From a virus, in the IMG/VR virus record IMGVR_UViG_3300033571_015671, positions 1 through 26,259 of that record: 26,259 bases of DNA; one strand, given 5' to 3'. How positions within the stretch are numbered: position 1 is the stretch's first letter; every line of letters begins with the position of its first letter. Below the pieces are notes generated by a model. It was given only the letters and a program-made list of their open reading frames with translations. It had not been told where the DNA came from and made no database searches. Shown piece after piece: positions 121 to 12,957 of this stretch. Position numbers and translations under genes: made by a program.

Positions 121-2616
121 TTATATAAAAAAAGATTCTAATGTGTTGGTTTTTTCAGTTTTCCATCCAATACATTGAAGGATTGTCTTCAGTGGATCTA
201 GAAAACTTTTATCAAATTGAAGTTCATAATCAACATACTTATTAAGATTTAACTCTTTAGGGAATTGTTGAATGAAGGACAATACATTTTCATGTATTGG
301 ATTTGCTGCTTTTAAATAACAGAATTTAATTTTCTCTCCATTATTAATAACAGGATATTTATTATCTAAATTATTTTTTTTAATATAGTAATTATACAGC
401 AATACCCCTCTAATGTGAATAGGTGTTCCCTTTTCATAGATTGAATTTACTGATCTATACTTACTGATATTATTAGCAGTCCTAGGGAAAGAAATGTCTT
501 CTGGGGGAAGATTGTAAAATTTAGTTCTACTCTTATCGATGAACTCAATCATATCATCTTCAGTTTTATTCATAATGATCTGGAATGCTTCTTTAATCAT
601 TGTCCTGCAAGGAGCAGGAGTTGAAGATTTAATTGCCTCAAGACCCATGATTTTAAGTTTAGGTTCTGAATAACGAACACCTTCACTATCCCAAACATTA
701 AGAATGTATCTTTTCTTTGCAGTCCAAATTCCTCTTTCTGCAATATTCTCCCTCTTCATCTGCATCTTTTGGTCATAAGCATTTACATACTTAGCCAATT
801 CTTGGTAAGAACTTTCAATATACTTTTCAAATTCCAACTTACAGATCTTATCAAGGAACGAGACAATGCCCTCAGTAGTTTTCTCTCTTCCCTGGTATAC
901 ACTTTCAACCAAAGGACCCATATTAAGATAGATGGAATCAGTATCAGAAGCAATAACATAATCAACACCCTTAGTTTTAAGAATCTTATTAAGATATAAA
1001 TTCATCTTACTCTCAATCCAACGAATTGAGACTTGTCCAGAAAGAGTTACTGCTTCAGCATTTTCAATACGAAAATATCTAAAATACTCATTACCAACAG
1101 CACCATAAGCAGAGTTCAAAGAAATTTTCTTTGCCATCTGAATATTGTTACATCTAGAAATTTCTTTCATCAATTCAACAGTAGGAGTTTTTTCATACTG
1201 TTGTTTTGCTTCAATCATTTTCTTTTTATAGATTACACGATCAGTGTACATCTTTTCCATCAACTCTGGAAGAAATCCTCTAATGTCTTTCTTATATTGT
1301 GCCCCATTAGCACATACTGCATATGGATAATTCTCTGGAATGGTAACTTCCTTTTTAAGAAGTTTGTCTACTGAAATTGAAGGGAATCTATCTTCAACTA
1401 AAGTTTCTGGTGAAATGTTATATTGCATAATCAAATGAGGATATAGAGAGTTGAGGTCAAATGAAACCACCCACTCATGCTTTCCTATAATTGGATCCTT
1501 TACATAGGCTCCTTCATATCTTTGATCTTTCTTAGATTCTTTTTTGAAAGGGATTACTACATTTTTAGATCTTAGATAATTGTAAATGATGGCATCCCAC
1601 ATTCTAACTTGATAGAATACATCATTGTAATTACTTTTAGCATCATATGCCATAGTGATAGCAAGTTCAATAAGACGCATCTTATCCTCAAGTCTATCTA
1701 CTAGTTCTACGTCAACAATGTTATATTCTACAAATTTTTGCCAGTTTTTTGTATAGAACTCTTTAAAAGTATCATACTCTGAGTGATCTAGTTTTTTCTG
1801 TCCTAGTTCAACATTAGCAATATGATCAAGTCTATATGATTCCTGATTAGTATAAGTAAATTTCTTATACAGTTCCATATAATCCAAAATTGTAATGCCA
1901 GCAATCTCAACTCGTGTTTGAGTTCTACCTGCAATAACAACCTCAGTTTCTGTTACTATTCCCCAAGGAGAAAGTTTTTTTACTGCTTTCTCCCCAAACA
2001 TTTTATTAATTCTTCCAGATAGATATGGAATATCATAAAGATCACAATTCCATCCAGTGATAACATCTGGATGATTTGAGTCCCAATAAAAAAGAAATCT
2101 ATCCAACAAATCATACTCATCCTTACAAAGGATATAAGTTACATTTGGTTTAGTATTGACAAAAGGTTTAACTCCCCAAGTAATAATATTTTTAGTATTA
2201 TAATCTTGAATGGAAATTGTCAAGAGTTCTTCTTGACAACTTTTAACATCAGGGAATCCATTTTCTGATGCAACCTCAATGTCAATGGTTATCAGTTGGA
2301 TTTTACTAATATCAAATTTAATAGCATCTTCTGTATAGTTATCTGAGATGTATTGATTGATGTATCTAGTATTTCCGTATAGTTGAAAGTTATCAACATT
2401 TTTATACTTGTCTATAAATTCTCTAGTTTCACGAATTGTGCCTGGTTTAACTTCACCTACAAAATTGCCATCTAATGTTTTAAATTTTGTTTTTTTATTA
2501 GTGCTTACATAAATTGTGGGATAGAAAGTTTCTCTGTTTTTAAAATGTTCTCCATTATAAAACCCCCTGGAGAGAATTTCATTTCCCACCAGGACAACAT
2601 TTGTGTAAAACTTCAT
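121..2616 (-). CDS. 43: gp43 DNA polymerase (family B) with 3'-5' exonuclease
   Basis: Replicative DNA polymerase, 831 aa (T4 gp43 is about 900). The exonuclease domain shows Exo I (DIEVAS, D112 and E114), an Exo II-like stretch HPDVITGWNCDLYDIPYL near 182-199 and Exo III (YNIVDVELVD near 298-307). Polymerase motif A is DLNSLYP (387-393), motif B KKISLNSAYGAVGN (496-509) and motif C ASDTDSIYLN (556-565, catalytic DTD). All catalytic residues appear intact. The last residues, TLESFFI, are in the position of the T4 clamp-binding tail. The start overlaps the preceding small Sm-like gene by 4 bp (ATGA), implying translational coupling. No intein, split or insertion is apparent. A late-type promoter lies upstream of the three preceding genes. 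Confidence 0.98.
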   Translation of the reverse strand: MKFYTNVVLVGNEILSRGFYNGEHFKNRETFYPTIYVSTNKKTKFKTLDGNFVGEVKPGTIRETREFIDKYKNVDNFQLYGNTRYINQYISDNYTEDAIKFDISKIQLITIDIEVASENGFPDVKSCQEELLTISIQDYNTKNIITWGVKPFVNTKPNVTYILCKDEYDLLDRFLFYWDSNHPDVITGWNCDLYDIPYLSGRINKMFGEKAVKKLSPWGIVTETEVVIAGRTQTRVEIAGITILDYMELYKKFTYTNQESYRLDHIANVELGQKKLDHSEYDTFKEFYTKNWQKFVEYNIVDVELVDRLEDKMRLIELAITMAYDAKSNYNDVFYQVRMWDAIIYNYLRSKNVVIPFKKESKKDQRYEGAYVKDPIIGKHEWVVSFDLNSLYPHLIMQYNISPETLVEDRFPSISVDKLLKKEVTIPENYPYAVCANGAQYKKDIRGFLPELMEKMYTDRVIYKKKMIEAKQQYEKTPTVELMKEISRCNNIQMAKKISLNSAYGAVGNEYFRYFRIENAEAVTLSGQVSIRWIESKMNLYLNKILKTKGVDYVIASDTDSIYLNMGPLVESVYQGREKTTEGIVSFLDKICKLEFEKYIESSYQELAKYVNAYDQKMQMKRENIAERGIWTAKKRYILNVWDSEGVRYSEPKLKIMGLEAIKSSTPAPCRTMIKEAFQIIMNKTEDDMIEFIDKSRTKFYNLPPEDISFPRTANNISKYRSVNSIYEKGTPIHIRGVLLYNYYIKKNNLDNKYPVINNGEKIKFCYLKAANPIHENVLSFIQQFPKELNLNKYVDYELQFDKSFLDPLKTILQCIGWKTEKTNTLESFFI

Positions 2617-2879
2617 TTAATAGCCTTCAAGTATTTTTCAATTTGATCTGATTTAGGGTCAACAATAGTAAGTATAGAATCTGAATGAATCTTAATTTCT
2701 TTTTGGTCTGTAAAGTCTGGCCATCTTTTTACAGTATATTCTCCAAAAGGTTCTTTGACCATCTCAACAGGATTTACCAGTTTGCAATCAGGTTCTCCTA
2801 GATCTGCCCCTCCAACCTCATGAATTTCAGTAACTAAAATAGTATCATTCTTCAGGAGTAAAATCTTGAGGTTCTGCAT
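2613..2879 (-). CDS. Small Sm-like (LSm) family protein, paralogue D
   Basis: An 88-aa protein. The ATG at 2879 is chosen because an earlier in-frame start (2927) would add a 16-residue Trp/Asn/Leu-rich extension lying inside the upstream gene, and a GGA-containing SD sits about 8 nt before 2879. It overlaps the upstream 101-aa gene by 35 bp and gp43 by 4 bp. The layout KILLLKND-ILVTEIHE, then a W-P-hydrophobic stretch, then KEIKIHSDSILTIVDPKSDQIEKY matches its neighbour (KEIPIPCDWVVSIVEPLDEV) closely, suggesting tandem duplication. The pattern of short beta strands ending in 'vvxIxxPxDxVxxxY' resembles small Sm-like proteins described from putative cyanophage sequences. The Sm fold is inferred from pattern; the function (RNA binding or replication accessory) is unknown. 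Confidence 0.75.
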   Translation of the reverse strand: MQNLKILLLKNDTILVTEIHEVGGADLGEPDCKLVNPVEMVKEPFGEYTVKRWPDFTDQKEIKIHSDSILTIVDPKSDQIEKYLKAIK

Positions 2880-3150
2880 TAAATTGTTCCAAATAAGATT
2901 GTTTAACTTCGTCCAAAGGTTCCACAATAGAAACTACCCAATCACAAGGAATAGGAATTTCCTTTTGCTTTGACAATGCTGCATATGGGTAAAAACTTAC
3001 CTTTGCAGATTCACCTTCTAGACCTTGCTCTAGTTTAGTAATAAATGGATTATTGAGCAAATAACCAATTACTTTATCGCCAGACATCATTTCTTTGACA
3101 TCAGCAATAACATCTTCGTATGATTTAAGAATCAAAAGTTTAACTGACAT
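2845..3150 (-). CDS. Small Sm-like (LSm) family protein, paralogue C
   Basis: A 101-aa protein starting MSVKLLILKSYEDVIADVKE, which is like the start of the 95-aa protein at 6326-6613 (MNVKLVRFSFGQEVIAELIE). The C-terminal half shares the family pattern: FYPYAAL, then KEIPIPCDWVVSIVEPLDEVKQSY. A GGAGAACT Shine-Dalgarno directly precedes the ATG at 3150. It overlaps the upstream nucleotidyltransferase-like gene by 11 bp and the downstream paralogue by 35 bp. It has an acidic C-terminal tail (EPQDFTPEE). Sm-like rings usually bind U-rich RNA; whether this protein does cannot be told from sequence. It lies in the same transcription unit as DNA polymerase. Confidence 0.8.
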   Translation of the reverse strand: MSVKLLILKSYEDVIADVKEMMSGDKVIGYLLNNPFITKLEQGLEGESAKVSFYPYAALSKQKEIPIPCDWVVSIVEPLDEVKQSYLEQFNAEPQDFTPEE

Positions 3151-4489: not shown

Positions 4490-4930
4490 TTATTCTGTTA
4501 CCTCTACCTTTTTCTTTTTTGACCCAATATTATATTTGGTCTCAAGAGTCCATTCATTTTTTTCCTTATATGAAAGGACTTTAATCTGGTTAAGTGGGGC
4601 AATATCAGAAATTTTATTTACATCTACAATAGTAATTAATCCCCAATCAGCAAGAAGTTGTGCAATCCTATTACGTCTCTGAACATCATTGACAGTAAGA
4701 TTTGCATGTTTGCCATCAAGAGCAAACAACTCTTTGAAATGCACCAGATAATATCTACCTTGCTTATGTAGAATATGGCAAGATTGATAAATCTTTTTTT
4801 CCTTTCTAGATGCTACTCCAATACGAGTAAGTGTCTCACGAACCTTCAAAAAGTCATCGGGTTCATTTAGGACTACTTCCACCATTTGGTCTGGAGTCCA
4901 ATTCACTTCAGGTTCTTGAACAACACTCAT
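4490..4930 (-). CDS. regA: RegA translational repressor
   Basis: A 146-aa RegA, the phage protein that binds ribosome-binding regions of early mRNAs (in T4 including genes 44, 45 and 62) and blocks their translation. The core EPDDFLKVRETLTRIGVA (23-40), IYQSCHILHKQGRYYLVHFKEL (47-68) and RRNRIAQLLADWGLI (85-99) aligns with T4 RegA. Compared with T4 (122 aa) it has about 15 extra N-terminal residues and a Lys-rich then acidic tail (SKKKKVEVTE). The upstream start at 4930 is preferred over the internal Met16 because GGAGGAA lies 5 nt before it, and it overlaps the gp62 stop by 4 bp (ATGA). It is last in its operon, as in T4 (45-44-62-regA). Confidence 0.96.
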   Translation of the reverse strand: MSVVQEPEVNWTPDQMVEVVLNEPDDFLKVRETLTRIGVASRKEKKIYQSCHILHKQGRYYLVHFKELFALDGKHANLTVNDVQRRNRIAQLLADWGLITIVDVNKISDIAPLNQIKVLSYKEKNEWTLETKYNIGSKKKKVEVTE

Positions 4931-5313
4931 TTTGTTCCTCCAATTTCAAGTTTCTGTGTTATAAAATTAAGTTGGTCTTTAGTCAGAATTTTCAAAGCTT
5001 GTTCTGCTTTATCTTTACTATACCCATAGTAAGATTTAACTAAATCAATATCTTTAAGTTTATCCTTACGAATCCAAGGAGAATATCTCTTTTTGATCCT
5101 GAGAATATTTATAAGAAAATCATATTGTAACTTTTTGTCTAATGAATGATTCTTATTGAGTTCATTAACATACATCAGACAATCAATGTGACCAGATAAA
5201 CACTTGTTAATAATATATGGAGAGTACTCTTTAGTAGAAGAAGGATCTTCATCCATAATATGTTTTTTAGTTTGATTAATTGAATTCAACCAATCTTTCA
5301 ATTCATACTTCAT
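4927..5313 (-). CDS. 62: gp62 clamp loader small subunit
   Basis: A 128-aa protein matching the short marine form of gp62 (T4 gp62 is 187 aa). Supporting residues are LKDWLNSINQTKKHIM (5-20), YSPYIINKCLSGHIDCLMYVNEL (31-53) and ILRIKKRYSPWIRKDK (70-85). It partners gp44 in the complex that loads the gp45 clamp onto primer-template DNA. It lies immediately before regA, its usual place, and overlaps the Dam-type methylase gene upstream by 11 bp. Unlike T4, it is separated from gene 44 by three other genes, so balanced synthesis of the two loader subunits depends on that longer message. Confidence 0.92.
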   Translation of the reverse strand: MKYELKDWLNSINQTKKHIMDEDPSSTKEYSPYIINKCLSGHIDCLMYVNELNKNHSLDKKLQYDFLINILRIKKRYSPWIRKDKLKDIDLVKSYYGYSKDKAEQALKILTKDQLNFITQKLEIGGTK

Positions 5314-6133
5314 AATTAATAAGAACTAATTCTTTTCGTTCATGTTGGTCTTTCATGTATTCTCCAACTGATCTCATAGTATAAGTATGAGCAAATTCAA
5401 TTGCTTTCCATGTATTAAATCTTTCTTTGATCAACTGAGTTGAATTATAACTGACCATCATATCCATATTATTAGAATCACAATCAGCAGCAAACTTATC
5501 GTGATCAAATCCTTTGTGCATTGATCCTCTGTTCCCATAGAGATTATCCTTAATATCATAAGGAGGGTCAAGATACATAAAAGCACCTGTGTCTCCATCC
5601 ATGAGGTAATCATAGGAGTAATTAGTAATACGCCAATTTGCAATCAACTCTGAGTATTCTCGCAATTTGTAGATTCCCCTCAAGGAGAAATTGGAACTAC
5701 TTGCTTGTGCAGAAAAAGATGAACTTTCGGTAAGACCACTAAAAGAACATTTGTTAACAATATAGAAAGCGACAGCACGATTAAAGTTAGTTTCAGACTC
5801 ATCATTGATATGCTCCTTTGACTTTGTAAATAATTCTCTTGCTAATTCTGGAGTATTGTAAGCAAGTTTACAATCAACTAATTCGCTCTGTAGATCATAT
5901 CCAAACATCTGGAGTTGCTGCCAGAAGTTTACCAATGGTTCATAAAGGTCATTTACCCAAATATCTAACAAAGGAAACATCTTGGTGATGTAAATTGCAA
6001 CACTTCCACCGCCAAGAAATGGTTCACGAAACTCTCCATAACAATCTCTAAGATTAGGAAAGTATTGTGCTAGTTTTTGCACTGCTCTGGATTTTCCTCC
6101 AGGGTAGCGTAATGGTGTCTTAAGTTCCTTCAT
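5303..6133 (-). CDS. dam: Dam-type DNA adenine methyltransferase
   Basis: A 276-aa D12-class N6-adenine methyltransferase. The AdoMet motifs are present: motif X TPLRYPGGKSRAV (6-18), motif I REPFLGGGSVAIY (36-48) and catalytic motif IV DPPYDI (189-194). The length is typical of the Dam/DpnM family. Its likely role is protection of phage DNA from host nucleases or marking of replicated DNA. The target sequence cannot be read from the protein. GATC occurs at several places in the window, so no strong site avoidance is visible. It is embedded in the clamp-loader operon, overlapping the 69-aa gene by 14 bp and gp62 by 11 bp. No restriction endonuclease gene is nearby, so it appears to be a solitary methylase. 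Confidence 0.93.
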   Translation of the reverse strand: MKELKTPLRYPGGKSRAVQKLAQYFPNLRDCYGEFREPFLGGGSVAIYITKMFPLLDIWVNDLYEPLVNFWQQLQMFGYDLQSELVDCKLAYNTPELARELFTKSKEHINDESETNFNRAVAFYIVNKCSFSGLTESSSFSAQASSSNFSLRGIYKLREYSELIANWRITNYSYDYLMDGDTGAFMYLDPPYDIKDNLYGNRGSMHKGFDHDKFAADCDSNNMDMMVSYNSTQLIKERFNTWKAIEFAHTYTMRSVGEYMKDQHERKELVLINYEV

Positions 6134-6329
6134 AATCAGGTTTATGATATTTTAAATATTCCCAAAATGTGAGTTTCATTTCCTTCTGCGTCATACCACA
6201 ATGGTTTGCAGCAGCAGGAAGGGTCATTTTAGCACGAAATAAACATTCATTTGCTTCTCTGACATTTTCTGGAGTAGTTTTCACTACAGGTTCTTTTAGA
6301 TGTTTATATGAAATTTTATAAGGGTTCAT
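6120..6329 (-). CDS. Small conserved-type protein with HTH-like segment
   Basis: A 69-aa protein starting MNPYKISYKHLKEP. The second half, from about 31 to 60 (FRAKMTLPAAANHCGMTQKEMK), has helix-turn-helix spacing: a helix with small residues, then a Gly-Met-Thr turn, then a second helix. It could bind DNA or be a small helical adaptor; I do not recognise a named family. The start at 6329 overlaps the stop of the Sm-like gene by 4 bp (ATGA), and the end overlaps the methylase start by 14 bp. Translation of the three genes is therefore likely to be coupled. The tight fit argues for a real gene despite its size. Confidence 0.75.
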   Translation of the reverse strand: MNPYKISYKHLKEPVVKTTPENVREANECLFRAKMTLPAAANHCGMTQKEMKLTFWEYLKYHKPDYEGT

Positions 6330-6613
6330 AGAATCAAAGATTTTTCTGTAGTAATGACTCTACCAAAAACACTTTTATGATACTTGATGACATCATCATC
6401 TGGTGTTGCAATATAAACAACAAATGATTTGCCAATAGTTAATTGATTATCTGTCTTACTGATAATTGGTGCCCAAGGAACAAATCCAAGTTGTCCTTGC
6501 CCTGTAGGAACTGCTGCAAGAGCATCCTTAATAATAATATAAGTATCGAACTCTTCAATAAGTTCTGCAATTACTTCTTGACCAAAAGAAAATCTAACAA
6601 GTTTTACATTCAT
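6326..6613 (-). CDS. Small Sm-like (LSm) family protein, paralogue B
   Basis: A 95-aa protein, MNVKLVRFSFGQEVIAELIE at the start, resembling the 101-aa protein at 2845-3150. The C-terminal half FVPWAPII, LTIGKSFVVYIATPDDDVIKYH carries the family pattern of an aromatic-Pro pair, a beta strand, then 'VVxIxxPxDxV'. The start overlaps the gp44 stop by 4 bp (ATGA) and the end overlaps the 69-aa gene by 4 bp. This is the most central member of the four-protein Sm-like set, placed between the two clamp-loader genes. Sm fold and nucleic-acid binding are inferred from pattern; oligomeric state is unknown. Confidence 0.8.
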   Translation of the reverse strand: MNVKLVRFSFGQEVIAELIEEFDTYIIIKDALAAVPTGQGQLGFVPWAPIISKTDNQLTIGKSFVVYIATPDDDVIKYHKSVFGRVITTEKSLIL

Positions 6614-7557
6614 TTAAAATTACACTCCACCATAATTTCTGTAAGGGCAGCAAGAATATTTATTTCTTGGTCTGCCACAAATGCGCTTTGGTACTGGTAC
6701 TTAGCAATAATAAGAACTGCAGCAGCAATTCCAGAACCATCTAATTTATCATACAAGGCATCATAAACATTACGAAGAACAATGCCTGCATCATTATCCA
6801 AATTTTCTACAACCCATTTACGAACTTCACCAAAGTTCTTTTCCTTCAAATGTTTGACTAGATCATTTAGTTTTACATTACTAAAGGATGCAAGGATTGC
6901 AGAATCAATAGATCCACCAACTGAATATCTTTGACATTCATTTAAAACTCTTCTCCAATCTGGGAAGTGCTTATTGATCAGTTGTGCAATAACTTTTGGA
7001 TCATATTTTACAGATTCTTTATCCAAAATAGTCTGCAGACGAATGAAAAATGATTCTGCTAGAGAAACTTTTTCTTTAGTCTTAATAGCAAAATCAACAA
7101 CTGCACATCTAGAATGGAGAGGATCAATGATCTTATTTTTATAATTACATGTAAAAATAAATCTACAATTATTATAAAAAGTTTCTATATTAGCTCTAAG
7201 AAGTAGTTGCACATCAGTAGTAGTATTATCAGCTTCATCAATGATAATAACTTTTGGTTTTCCATTTCCCTGAAGGGAGACTGTTGATGCAAAATTCTTT
7301 GCCTGATTTCTAACTGTATCTAGAAATCTTCCTTCATCTGATCCATTAATGATGTAAAAATCTACTCCTAATTCATTACACAATGCCTTTGCCACTGTAG
7401 TCTTACCACATCCAGCAGGACCAGATAGGAGAAGATTTGGAACTTCTCCAGCATCTACAAACTTTTGAAATGTTTGTTTGATGGCATCTGGCAAAATACA
7501 ATCTTTAATTGTTTTGGGTCTATATTTTTCAACCCAAAGAAATTGGTCACGACTCAT
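6610..7557 (-). CDS. 44: gp44 clamp loader large subunit (AAA+ ATPase)
   Basis: A 315-aa AAA+ ATPase (T4 gp44 is 319 aa), the motor of the clamp loader. Motifs in order are FLWVEKYRPKTIKDCILPD (6-24), Walker A GPAGCGKT (46-53), Walker B VIIIDEAD (103-110), sensor 1 FIFTCNYKNKII (134-145) and the arginine-finger SRC motif (149-151). With gp62 it opens the gp45 clamp and loads it at primer ends. It follows the 48-aa gene after a 16-nt gap and overlaps the next Sm-like gene by 4 bp. In T4 gene 44 is followed directly by 62; here three genes intervene. Confidence 0.98.
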   Translation of the reverse strand: MSRDQFLWVEKYRPKTIKDCILPDAIKQTFQKFVDAGEVPNLLLSGPAGCGKTTVAKALCNELGVDFYIINGSDEGRFLDTVRNQAKNFASTVSLQGNGKPKVIIIDEADNTTTDVQLLLRANIETFYNNCRFIFTCNYKNKIIDPLHSRCAVVDFAIKTKEKVSLAESFFIRLQTILDKESVKYDPKVIAQLINKHFPDWRRVLNECQRYSVGGSIDSAILASFSNVKLNDLVKHLKEKNFGEVRKWVVENLDNDAGIVLRNVYDALYDKLDGSGIAAAVLIIAKYQYQSAFVADQEINILAALTEIMVECNFK

Positions 7558-7573
7558 AATTTAAAAATCAGGA

Positions 7574-7720
7574 TTAAACTGGTTGGGGTCCTCCAACTAT
7601 TCTTGCTGAAGGTATTTGTGCCTGAGATACTTTAACTGCATGGCACTGATTATTTGCTTCAACAATAAGTTCTAGATATCTAGAATCTTTTGGAAGTTGG
7701 TATCTTACTCTAAATTTCAT
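7574..7720 (-). CDS. 48-aa small protein between clamp and clamp loader
   Basis: A small gene encoding MKFRVRYQLPKDSRYLEL at the start and IPSARIVGGPQPV at the end. It fills the otherwise empty 160-bp space between gp45 and gp44. Its ATG overlaps the gp45 stop codon by 4 bp (ATGA), the same coupling used elsewhere in this operon. Codon use looks like that of its neighbours and the predicted fold is a beta-beta-alpha type unit (a basic strand, VEANNQCHAVKVSQAQIP as a helix, then a strand). I do not recognise a family. Its place suggests a clamp or loader accessory, but that is inference only. Confidence 0.72.
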   Translation of the reverse strand: MKFRVRYQLPKDSRYLELIVEANNQCHAVKVSQAQIPSARIVGGPQPV

Positions 7721-8382
7721 TCAAAGGTTGAATCTGGTTCAAGAGCAATAAAGTATGTTAGATTGTATTTTTCGTTAGTGAATTTGGCAACATTCTTTTC
7801 TGAAATAATTACACTATAGCAACCAGGAATAATTTTAATGTTTTCTACTTTAAAATTAAACACAAATGTATTTAAAGTTTCACCAACAACAATTGAAAAC
7901 TCATTAGATGTATCATTCTTTTTATCTCTAACAACAAGTCTAATTACACCAGACTCTCCAACAACAGAAAGATCATCAAGATCATATACTGATGCTGCTT
8001 TCTTAAGTTTATCTAGTTGTGAATGCTCCAGTTCAAAACAGACATCTTCAGATGGAAGTTTCATCTCTCTATTTGGAGGTGATACAATCACTTCAGGGTC
8101 TGCATAAAAATATTTTACCTTCCTCTTCCCTTCACGAATAATAAGATAGTTTTCATTATCAAAATCCAGTTCAGGATCTTGGTGAAGATTTAGTCCATTT
8201 AGAAATTGATTAAGATCATAGATTGCAAAATCTTTTGGAAAACTTTCTTCCACTTCTGCTTCAGCAAAGATATTAGTCATTACTGAAATAGTCTTCAATT
8301 TAGACCCTTCTTTAAAAACAATAGACTGATTAATAGAAGAAAAATTCTTCAGGATATTAATAGTATTTTCAGAAAGTTTCAT
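7717..8382 (-). CDS. 45: gp45 sliding clamp
   Basis: A 221-aa DNA sliding clamp (T4 gp45 is 228 aa). It forms the trimeric ring that tethers gp43 and, in late transcription, activates gp55-bound RNA polymerase. The start MKLSENTINILKNFSSINQSI aligns with T4 MKLSKDTTALLKNFATINS, so the ATG at 8382 is chosen over in-frame starts 11 and 6 codons earlier. FAIYDLNQFLNGL is conserved and the C-terminus ALEPDSTFE matches T4 ALEADSTHDF. It overlaps the upstream DUF3310-like gene by 14 bp and the 48-aa gene by 4 bp. Confidence 0.95.
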   Translation of the reverse strand: MKLSENTINILKNFSSINQSIVFKEGSKLKTISVMTNIFAEAEVEESFPKDFAIYDLNQFLNGLNLHQDPELDFDNENYLIIREGKRKVKYFYADPEVIVSPPNREMKLPSEDVCFELEHSQLDKLKKAASVYDLDDLSVVGESGVIRLVVRDKKNDTSNEFSIVVGETLNTFVFNFKVENIKIIPGCYSVIISEKNVAKFTNEKYNLTYFIALEPDSTFE

Positions 8383-8905
8383 AGGTGCTCTTAGTTTCAT
8401 TGTGTAGTCCAGCAAAGTTATATAGAAGAATGCAGTAATGGATTGCTTTCAAAATATCAAGCCTTGACTTTCCATTCTTTTTACCAAATCTAGAAAGATA
8501 TTTAATAGCATTAGACCTTGTAAAAGGTTCAGCATCGCCAATACTTTCAATCAGATCAAGAGTTTGAGTCTTGGACTGTTCAGAAGTATAATGTGCCTTG
8601 TAAGTGCTGGCAAGATACTGCTCAATATCTTTTAGAGTTTTATCTTCATTATATTTCCAAAATCCATTTTTATTAGTATTTTCAGTCATATTCAAATTAA
8701 AAGTATGAGGGTCATCTGGCATTTCTGTAAGAGTATATTTTACAGATCCATCAGGATATGTGTGTTTATAACAACCCAATTCAGGATTGTCTGAGGTTGT
8801 GGTAATTGGATTATTAGATGGTTTAAACCAAAATCCATCTGCAGTCATTCTATATCCTTTGTTTGTCATGCTTACATAATTTTGTTCATCATCAGGACCA
8901 AACAT
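8369..8905 (-). CDS. DUF3310-like protein
   Basis: A 178-aa protein. The C-terminal region (about 100-163) matches the DUF3310 pattern: HYTSEQ (105-110), NAIKYLSRFGKKNG (132-145) and DILKAIHYCILLY (150-162). This small helical domain is widespread in phages, and its biochemical role is not settled. The first 90 residues are a separate, probably beta-rich part (GYRMTADGFWFKPS, CYKHTYPDGSVKYTLTEMP) that I do not recognise. The ATG at 8905 lacks an obvious Shine-Dalgarno, but a 6-codon SD-led reading frame ends just upstream, so reinitiation is possible. It sits between gp46 and gp45 and overlaps gp45 by 14 bp, tying it to the replication operon. Confidence 0.75.
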   Translation of the reverse strand: MFGPDDEQNYVSMTNKGYRMTADGFWFKPSNNPITTTSDNPELGCYKHTYPDGSVKYTLTEMPDDPHTFNLNMTENTNKNGFWKYNEDKTLKDIEQYLASTYKAHYTSEQSKTQTLDLIESIGDAEPFTRSNAIKYLSRFGKKNGKSRLDILKAIHYCILLYNFAGLHNETKSTYETF

Positions 8906-12579: not shown

Positions 12580-12957
12580 CTAACTTTCTCTATAAGCTTT
12601 TTCTAAAGATCTTCTTGCCTCATCAACTTTGGATATTAATCCCATAGTTCTATCTATATTTACTTTAGAACTGCTTCTATTGAATTTATGATATATTTTA
12701 ATAATTTCTTTATTAGTAATTTCAGTCATAGTAATGACTTTATCCATATCAATAATATACATACTGTCATCAGGGATAGTCATCCAAGGTTCAACCTTAT
12801 ATCCAGCAATTGCACCAGATTTAGTGGTTATATGTGATATTATAATAGGACTGTCTAGAAGTAATAGAGTTCTTTCATCTTCATCCAACACAGAAAGAAA
12901 AGTAAAGATCTCTTCTCCAGATACCAACTTAATTGAAGCGTAAAATTCCTGTTCCAT
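12580..12957 (-). CDS. Small Sm-like (LSm) family protein, paralogue A
   Basis: A 125-aa protein. Its N-terminal 95 residues follow the Sm-like pattern seen in three other genes here: SIKLVSGEEIFTFLS at the start, VEPWMTIPDD, then MYIIDMDKVITMTEITNKEIIKIYH. A C-terminal helical tail of about 30 residues (STVN-type basic region then KVDEARRSLEKAYRES) is unique to this member. The ATG overlaps the UvsW stop by one base (TAATG), indicating coupling to UvsW. Function is unknown; binding of RNA or single-stranded DNA is a reasonable inference for the fold. About 60 bp of non-coding sequence separates its stop from the gp55 promoter, with no hairpin terminator seen. Confidence 0.75.
   Translation of the reverse strand: MEQEFYASIKLVSGEEIFTFLSVLDEDERTLLLLDSPIIISHITTKSGAIAGYKVEPWMTIPDDSMYIIDMDKVITMTEITNKEIIKIYHKFNRSSSKVNIDRTMGLISKVDEARRSLEKAYRES

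Follow-up and report, generated by a model that had tools for sequence, protein, structure and literature searches.

Background

In phage T4 (Tevenvirinae), the genes for the sliding clamp (gp45), the large and small clamp loader subunits (gp44 and gp62) and the translational repressor RegA follow the order 45-44-62-regA-43, and genes 44 and 62 abut, with only a 1-bp gap between them. We analyzed a stretch of T4-like cyanophage DNA, the IMG/VR record IMGVR_UViG_3300033571_015671 (26,259 bases, hereafter the window), in which this core order is preserved but a gene encoding a D12-class DNA methyltransferase (5303..6133, minus strand; PF02086 E 9e-30) lies between gp44 and gp62. The enzyme looks to belong with the GGCC N4-cytosine methyltransferases M.CbeI and DmtB and not with the GATC-specific Dam, and its predicted target is RGCY (R = A/G, Y = C/T). 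What is useful here is that a very common cyanophage gene can probably be re-assigned.

M.CbeI from Caldicellulosiruptor bescii, whose structure is 7M6B (PMC8616854), is annotated as an adenine enzyme of the D12 class and has a DPPY motif, and is reported to produce N4-methylcytosine at GGCC; the same product at the same site is reported for its relative DmtB from Anabaena variabilis (PMC3425538), both being alpha-class enzymes. M.Ssp6803II, which we cite as a GGCC enzyme only, with no claim of kinship to the phage gene, is described as an N4-methylase with homologues in almost all cyanobacterial clades, the loss of which affects DNA stability and replication (PMC6560206). Lytic phages have also been described to avoid sites in response to type II restriction (PMC6286503). 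A literature search, covering titles and abstract openings, returned no stated target for the cyanophage enzyme.

The cyanophage methyltransferase resembles M.CbeI and DmtB

While a preliminary description of the window named the gene product a DNA adenine methylase, this label was not supported by comparison with characterized enzymes. Among solved structures, the protein matches 7m6b (M.CbeI) with E 8.8e-40, DpnM with 1.4e-8 and T4 Dam with 5e-4, and against the NCBI dam model TIGR00571 it scores 91.8 bits, below the cut-off of 114.85. It has in common with M.CbeI and DmtB the D12 fold, the F-x-G-x-G motif (present as EPFLGGGS), the DPPY motif (residues 189-192, invariant in the alignment) and, after DPPY, a stretch of the form LYG...H..F.H..F. 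With the GATC N6-adenine enzymes T4 Dam and DpnM it has in common membership of the PF02086 family. However, a segment of the GxFNVPFG type, which is the target-recognition segment of GATC enzymes and reads FNVPYG in DpnM and FNVPFG in a second D12 enzyme of phages S-RIM8 and ACG-2014b, is missing from the window enzyme, which has SFSGLTESSSFSAQASSSNFSLRG at that place. GATC specificity appears improbable and was rejected on three grounds: the score against TIGR00571, the missing segment and a GATC frequency unlinked to the gene, as detailed below.

In a quick tree built from 42 D12 proteins (the outgroup has long branches, and some of its rows are partial), one set with 97% SH-aLRT unites the phage enzymes with M.CbeI and with homologues from cyanobacteria. 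Outside it fall DpnM, T4 Dam and, in S-RIM8, ACG-2014b and ACG-2014f, the second D12 enzyme. The homologues in cyanobacteria, among them Nostoc, Anabaena and Calothrix, are 35-38% identical to the window enzyme; a single-protein scan of bacterial genomes found no relative. Three contigs in assemblies of Saprospiraceae, Prochlorococcus and SAR86 (L254, L255 and L256) encode a phage-like methylase falling inside the phage set of the tree, and from this placement they may be phage DNA within bacterial assemblies.

The gene is widespread, with relatives in 426 phage-collection records, 414 of which are named Synechococcus, Prochlorococcus or cyanophage. Among the rows inspected, it is annotated as Dam, as cytosine-specific or plainly as DNA methyltransferase. 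The same gene at the same place is known as 'dam' or T4-GC 161 in P-SSM2, Syn1, P-HM1 and others, and the comparisons above do not bear out the adenine label of these annotations.

Phages carrying the enzyme avoid RGCY

Tetranucleotide counts in 22 cyanophages and T4 (60 kb each) were compared with a maximal-order Markov expectation. Motif tests included 17 carriers of the enzyme, S-RIM14 being left out as a near copy of S-ShM2, and the pooled carrier figures in the Markov test exclude T4 and ACG-2014f. RGCY has the lowest z of the 224 four-base degenerate palindromes in the pooled carriers, with 2,940 sites observed on both strands versus 10,735 expected (observed/expected ratio, O/E, 0.27) and every genome at or below 0.41; by O/E alone, CCGG (0.14) and GGCC (0.20) lie below it. 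The individual members AGCC, AGCT, GGCC and GGCT stand at 0.33, 0.32, 0.23 and 0.19 in carriers and at 0.91, 0.81, 0.88 and 0.78, respectively, in four pooled non-carriers. For GATC, the values are 0.82 in carriers versus 0.79 in the four non-carriers. ACG-2014f, which has a divergent D12 enzyme, is low in GGCC (0.16) but not in AGCT (0.83).

We also shuffled synonymous codons within each phage, keeping proteins and codon usage and taking long open frames as genes. This test adds six phages (50 kb each), for a total of 28 cyanophages. RGCY stands at 0.09-0.32 of the shuffled expectation in 17/17 carriers (z -17 to -31) and is depleted in all three codon phases (0.14, 0.18 and 0.23), which led us to reject codon usage as the cause of its loss. 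Deamination was rejected as well, since RGCY loss leaves no C-to-T footprint (RGTY/RACY 0.939 vs 0.943). The 11 cyanophages without the enzyme, counted to include S-N03, whose own D12 protein is only 22% identical to that of the window, range from S-SRM01 (0.13), MITS9220M01 (0.24), ACG-2014f (0.47) and RN05-S (0.55) through BUCT-ZZ01 (0.77), B23 (0.83), S-PRM1 (0.85), S-CRM01 (0.86) and S-CAM9 (0.91) to S-CAM7 and S-N03 (both 0.94); T4 is at 1.01. A value below 0.4 is therefore found in 17/17 carriers vs 2/11 non-carriers (Fisher p 8e-6, the genomes not being independent). GATC in the window stands at 0.96 of the shuffled expectation. At the level of loci, the median for RGCY is 0.28 with the enzyme (n=47: 36 IMG/VR loci and 11 phage stretches), 0.81 with a DruA-like protein described below (n=24) and 0.79 with neither (n=17), eight IMG/VR loci without gp62 being unclassed.

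Avoidance of a methylase's own motif has precedents among these phages. GATC is at 0.37 in T4, which has a true Dam, and S-RIM8 and ACG-2014b, with their GATC-type second D12 enzyme, are the lowest two of the 28 cyanophages for GATC (0.14 and 0.69). In S-RIM2, where the second D12 is weaker, the value is 0.85, and a few phages in which no GATC-type enzyme was found reach 0.82-0.88. Because T4, S-RIM8 and ACG-2014b are low in GATC, we read RGCY avoidance as a pointer to the enzyme's target. Such a rule would offer a cheap guess at the targets of other phage methylases. Methylases of the PF01555 family, sought in 24 records, occur in six. Five of these are the cyanophages with the lowest GCGC values (P-SSM2, P-HM1 and P-SSM7, all 0; P-RSM4, 0.26; S-SKS1, 0.30); the sixth, S-CAM3, is at 0.95. 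These counts suggest GCGC as a target of the PF01555 methylase. In S-CAM3 (locus L090, 7993-9263), an annotated type II restriction enzyme lies beside a PF01555 DNA methylase, between regA and hsp20.

Two further motifs are wholly absent from some genomes in the codon test: CCGG from 15/28 cyanophages (0 of 30-118 expected) and from the window (0 of 10 expected), with no enzyme identified for it, and GTAC from Syn1 and S-SM1 (0 of ~190-220 expected).

The gp44-gp62 interval is an exchangeable cargo site

In the window, gp44 (6610..7557; phrog_168 E 4e-131; PF00004; PF21328 Gp44_lid) and gp62 (4927..5313; PF16790 E 5e-11; phrog_225 E 5e-47) are separated, as the preliminary description had it, by three genes all pointing in one direction: a gene for a 95-aa Sm-like protein of phrog_527 (6326..6613), a gene for a 69-aa three-helix, HTH-like protein of phrog_1920 (6120..6329; E 7e-31) and the methylase gene. 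Every window gene given with coordinates here is on the minus strand. Recomputed coordinates confirm successive overlaps of 4, 4, 14 and 11 bp from gp44 to gp62, and gp62 in turn overlaps regA (4490..4930; PF01818 E 3e-45) by 4 bp. The overlaps had been taken as a sign that this is no loose insertion. They are real, but 14 of the 31 adjacent gene pairs in the window overlap (9/26 outside this block), so that tight packing is ordinary and, taken alone, weak evidence of a functional unit.

Next, we surveyed the interval in 80 loci from IMG/VR whose gp44 was closest among the matches listed, a biased sample, and in 16 phage stretches, using profiles built from the window proteins. Counts are for the 59 IMG/VR loci in which gp44 and gp62 are both present, the 21 without gp62 being left out. 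Their intervals contain the Sm-like gene only (18 loci), none of the three genes (15), the methylase only (14), Sm-like plus methylase (6), HTH-like plus methylase (4), HTH-like only (1) or all three (1, L055); the trio is also found in L054, a locus that ends before gp62. The 15 phage stretches with both gp44 and gp62 are distributed among methylase only (5), HTH-like plus methylase (3), none (3: S-CAM9, BUCT-ZZ01 and T4) and, with one stretch each, Sm-like plus methylase, HTH-like, Sm-like and all three (S-CAM3). The order of the trio recurs in S-CAM1 and S-CAM3, both with further annotated ORFs among the three genes. As in T4, gp44 and gp62 abut in BUCT-ZZ01 and in 4/59 IMG/VR loci (L004, L040, L062 and L078, judged from stop-to-stop ORF limits), while the remaining loci have cargo or a gap at that place.

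The three genes were previously interpreted as one module, an interpretation we reject since occupant combinations vary, all three genes meet in only 1/59 IMG/VR loci and two of them are also found elsewhere. The association of the Sm-like gene with the methylase in the interval is, if anything, negative (odds ratio 0.35, p 0.07), that of the HTH-like gene with the methylase is positive (8.3, p 0.07), and the odds ratio for the Sm-like and HTH-like genes is 0.24 (p 0.23). In 24 whole records (23 cyanophages and T4), the methylase is present in 19, and 18 of these 19 carriers have it between gp44 and gp62, which makes it part of the clamp-loader operon; in ACG-2014f, a relative 40% identical lies outside the interval. 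The 69-aa family is single-copy in 21/24 records, 7 times in the interval and 14 times elsewhere, often near 16-23 kb, and a close Sm-like family member (at least 100 bits) is present in 12/24 records, 8 times between gp44 and gp62 and 4 times elsewhere. Independent occurrence at unrelated loci, which the preliminary description had named as refuting its interpretation, is borne out in part: it is seen for the HTH-like and Sm-like genes (14/21 and 4/12) but for the methylase in only 1/19. The methylase is therefore a fixed resident of the interval, whereas the other two genes move; we regard these two as separate, movable cargo that does not work as a single machine.

A gp44 tree of 96 rows, 88 of them labelled by the occupant of the interval, requires at least 17 changes of label, with at least eight methylase changes forced by well-supported branches, so the site turns over often. 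Other annotated cargo includes DenV and 2OG-Fe(II) oxygenases. The interval is a known, exchangeable cargo site in the T4-type clamp-loader operon of cyanophages, and the arrangement in the window is real but ordinary. Taken as a whole, the preliminary interpretation is partly supported.

Possible roles of the methyltransferase

We lean, with some reservation, toward an orphan RGCY methylase that is made together with the clamp loader and protects phage DNA from restriction, N4-methylcytosine being its probable product. The data show gene order, homology, clade, and site avoidance with its raw link to the gene; we infer target, base, timing and purpose. The specificity of the D12 enzyme would have relaxed in phages to RGCY; M.CbeI and DmtB target GGCC, whereas the sites avoided in the phages are wider and, unlike for these two enzymes, no restriction partner was found for the window methylase. 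With regard to a coupling to replication forks, gene order goes no further than making it likely that the genes of the interval are expressed jointly with the clamp loader. By eye, a purine-rich stretch lies upstream of the 95-aa gene and of regA, with no obvious one upstream of the 69-aa gene, the methylase or gp62, a pattern compatible with coupled translation but not proof of it. Translated along with gp44 and gp62, the methylase would be present while phage DNA is copied. RGCY sites of progeny DNA would then be methylated, probably at N4 of cytosine, and the methylated DNA would resist restriction by a system of the cyanobacterial hosts that cuts at RGCY, GGCC or AGCT. As fast-replicating DNA would be methylated incompletely, the same restriction pressure would have removed most RGCY sites from the genomes. 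If the mark is indeed N4-methylcytosine at RGCY, the adenine label would be mistaken wherever it is used, HaeIII and AluI would be expected to meet resistance in cyanophage DNA, and restriction pressure on marine picocyanobacterial viruses would become directly testable.

Several observations weigh against this scenario. Identity to M.CbeI is 34%, too low for transfer of base or target, and DPPY is a motif of adenine enzymes too. The window itself is only moderately depleted in RGCY, with 65 sites observed versus 151 expected in the shuffle test (0.43, z -10). S-SRM01 (0.13) and MITS9220M01 (0.24) avoid RGCY without any D12 gene, and RGCY is moderately low in ACG-2014f (0.47) and RN05-S (0.55), both without the enzyme. 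CCGG avoidance also tracks the enzyme, the motif being absent in 15/17 carriers in the shuffle test (rank-test p 0.0009 for CCGG vs 0.002 for GGCC); carriers Bellamy and S-SKS1 keep some CCGG, and non-carriers S-PRM1 and RN05-S are nearly without it. Finally, among 8 safe independent pairs on the gp44 tree, RGCY avoidance accompanies the enzyme in 4.4, runs counter to it in 0.1 and shows no difference in 3.5, which is not significant (median p 0.125), the window (0.55 by Markov count) having been placed among non-avoiders in this first test; a laxer cut-off of 0.6 gives 2.5/0/5.5. Raw counts thus link RGCY strongly to the gene, but independence of this link from descent is not proven.

These same pairs, together with the two phages that avoid RGCY without the gene and the avoidance of CCGG and GTAC without an identified phage enzyme, would fit an enzyme with another target and an avoidance imposed by RGCY-restricting hosts that happen to coincide with carrier lineages. 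We consider such a host-range effect unlikely, although it deserves serious attention, since all 17 carriers avoid RGCY, the nearest characterized relatives are reported to target GGCC, and T4 Dam and the GATC-type second enzymes follow the same pattern of avoidance. The view originally proposed, of a true GATC adenine methylase coupled to replication forks and acting in a fixed trio alongside a ring that binds nucleic acids and an HTH protein, draws on the D12 family, on DPPY and on the recurrence of the trio order in L055, L054, S-CAM3 and S-CAM1. It appears very unlikely in view of the failed TIGR00571 test, the missing FNVPFG, a GATC frequency unlinked to the gene, and the HTH-like and Sm-like genes lying elsewhere in 14/21 and 4/12 carriers. 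The methylase might instead be a shield against a nuclease that the phage itself encodes to destroy the DNA of its host, CviJI of chlorella viruses being such a case. This would account for a methylase made during replication and for residual site loss, but we regard it as the least probable explanation: a HaeIII-type partner nuclease (PF09556), the one nuclease family searched, is present in 0/30 phage records and was rejected.

A DruA-like protein is an alternative occupant of the interval

A DruA-like protein of ~370 aa is encoded in 20/34 IMG/VR intervals without the methylase and in 0/25 with it (Fisher 6e-7). It matches phrog_19197 in the three cases tested and, in all of five tested, PF14236 (DruA) with E values between 1e-7 and 3e-13. 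This DruA/DUF4338-like protein is found between gp44 and gp62 in L006, L011, L081, L085, L086 and others, as well as in 4/30 whole phage records (S-PRM1, S-CAM9, MITS9220M01 and S-SRM01), none of these four having a D12 gene. Its AlphaFold model is of low-to-middling confidence (pLDDT 67.8), and matches of this model in the PDB are weak (all E > 0.01), nearly all being to GNAT-fold acyltransferases. The Mom protein of phage Mu is GNAT-like and modifies phage DNA. By analogy, the gp44-gp62 gap might be a DNA-protection slot, occupied by either the RGCY methylase or a DNA-modifying DruA-like protein with a GNAT-like core, an idea we hold as doubtful.

The protein comes in subtypes, that of MITS9220M01 being 74% identical to that of S-SRM01 and 48% to that of S-CAM9. 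S-PRM1, which shows no RGCY avoidance, has the S-CAM9 subtype, and both RGCY-avoiders without the methylase share the other. In DruA-like loci nested among carriers, RGCY is intermediate (0.38-0.6 for the most part); it reaches 0.9-1.4 in the groups around L006 and S-CAM9. This pattern may reflect fading of avoidance after gene loss or, equally, subtypes differing in function.

Sm-like and HTH-like proteins

The 95-aa protein (phrog_527 E 8e-26) aligns over 88/95 residues with PDB 3by7 (E 1.8e-7), the record of which reads 'uncharacterized protein' and which we take to be a cyanophage-type Sm-like protein reported in 2009. The 95-aa protein has no Pfam match at E<=1, PF16243 Sm_like included, but its earlier designation as Sm-like is supported by sequence, through the match to 3by7 and through a paralogue at 12580..12957 (phrog_471) that passes the cut-off of PF16243 (E 8e-9). 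Three such paralogues lie in the window, beside gp43 and between gp55 and uvsW, which are core genes of replication, recombination or late transcription. The one at 12580..12957 matches phrog_527 with E 1e-4 and TIP60 and 3by7 with E 2e-5 and 6e-4, respectively; that at 2845..3150 (phrog_431 E 1e-27) matches phrog_527 with E 7e-11 and 3by7 with only E 0.034; and that at 2613..2882 (phrog_483, DUF6561) matches 3by7 with E 2e-4 and PF20198 with E 2e-26. The phrog_527 profile finds at least one relative in 23/23 cyanophages and none in T4. Their position beside replication and recombination genes suggests that the Sm-like proteins take part in nucleic-acid work.

The predicted model of the 69-aa protein (pLDDT 74.5) has helices at residues 20-35, 37-44 and 48-61, with HTH spacing. 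A fold search of this model against the PDB gave no significant match (best E 0.7, rmsd 11 Å), and the designation HTH-like, as previously given, is borne by the predicted three-helix fold only. In S-SM1, the match to the 69-aa family overlaps an annotated tRNA-Leu, and in MITS9220M01, a later record, a gene of this family directly precedes the DruA-like gene and gp62.

Other features of the window

The core genes identified in the window comprise gp43, regA, gp62, gp44, gp45, gp46, gp47, gp55, uvsW, uvsY, and head and tail genes, some of the names in the window being assigned from translated sequence only. The closest annotated phages are Synechococcus/Prochlorococcus cyanophages, with DNA identity over the operon of ~65-73% in the best rows. 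Between gp45 and gp44 lies a gene for a 48-aa protein (7574..7720; phrog_16595 E 1e-8), relatives of which adjoin gp45 in 10 scanned loci, the window included. The sliding clamp gene gp45 itself (7717..8400; phrog_223 E 1e-89) starts with ATG at 8400, and an alternative TTG start at 8415 is also open.

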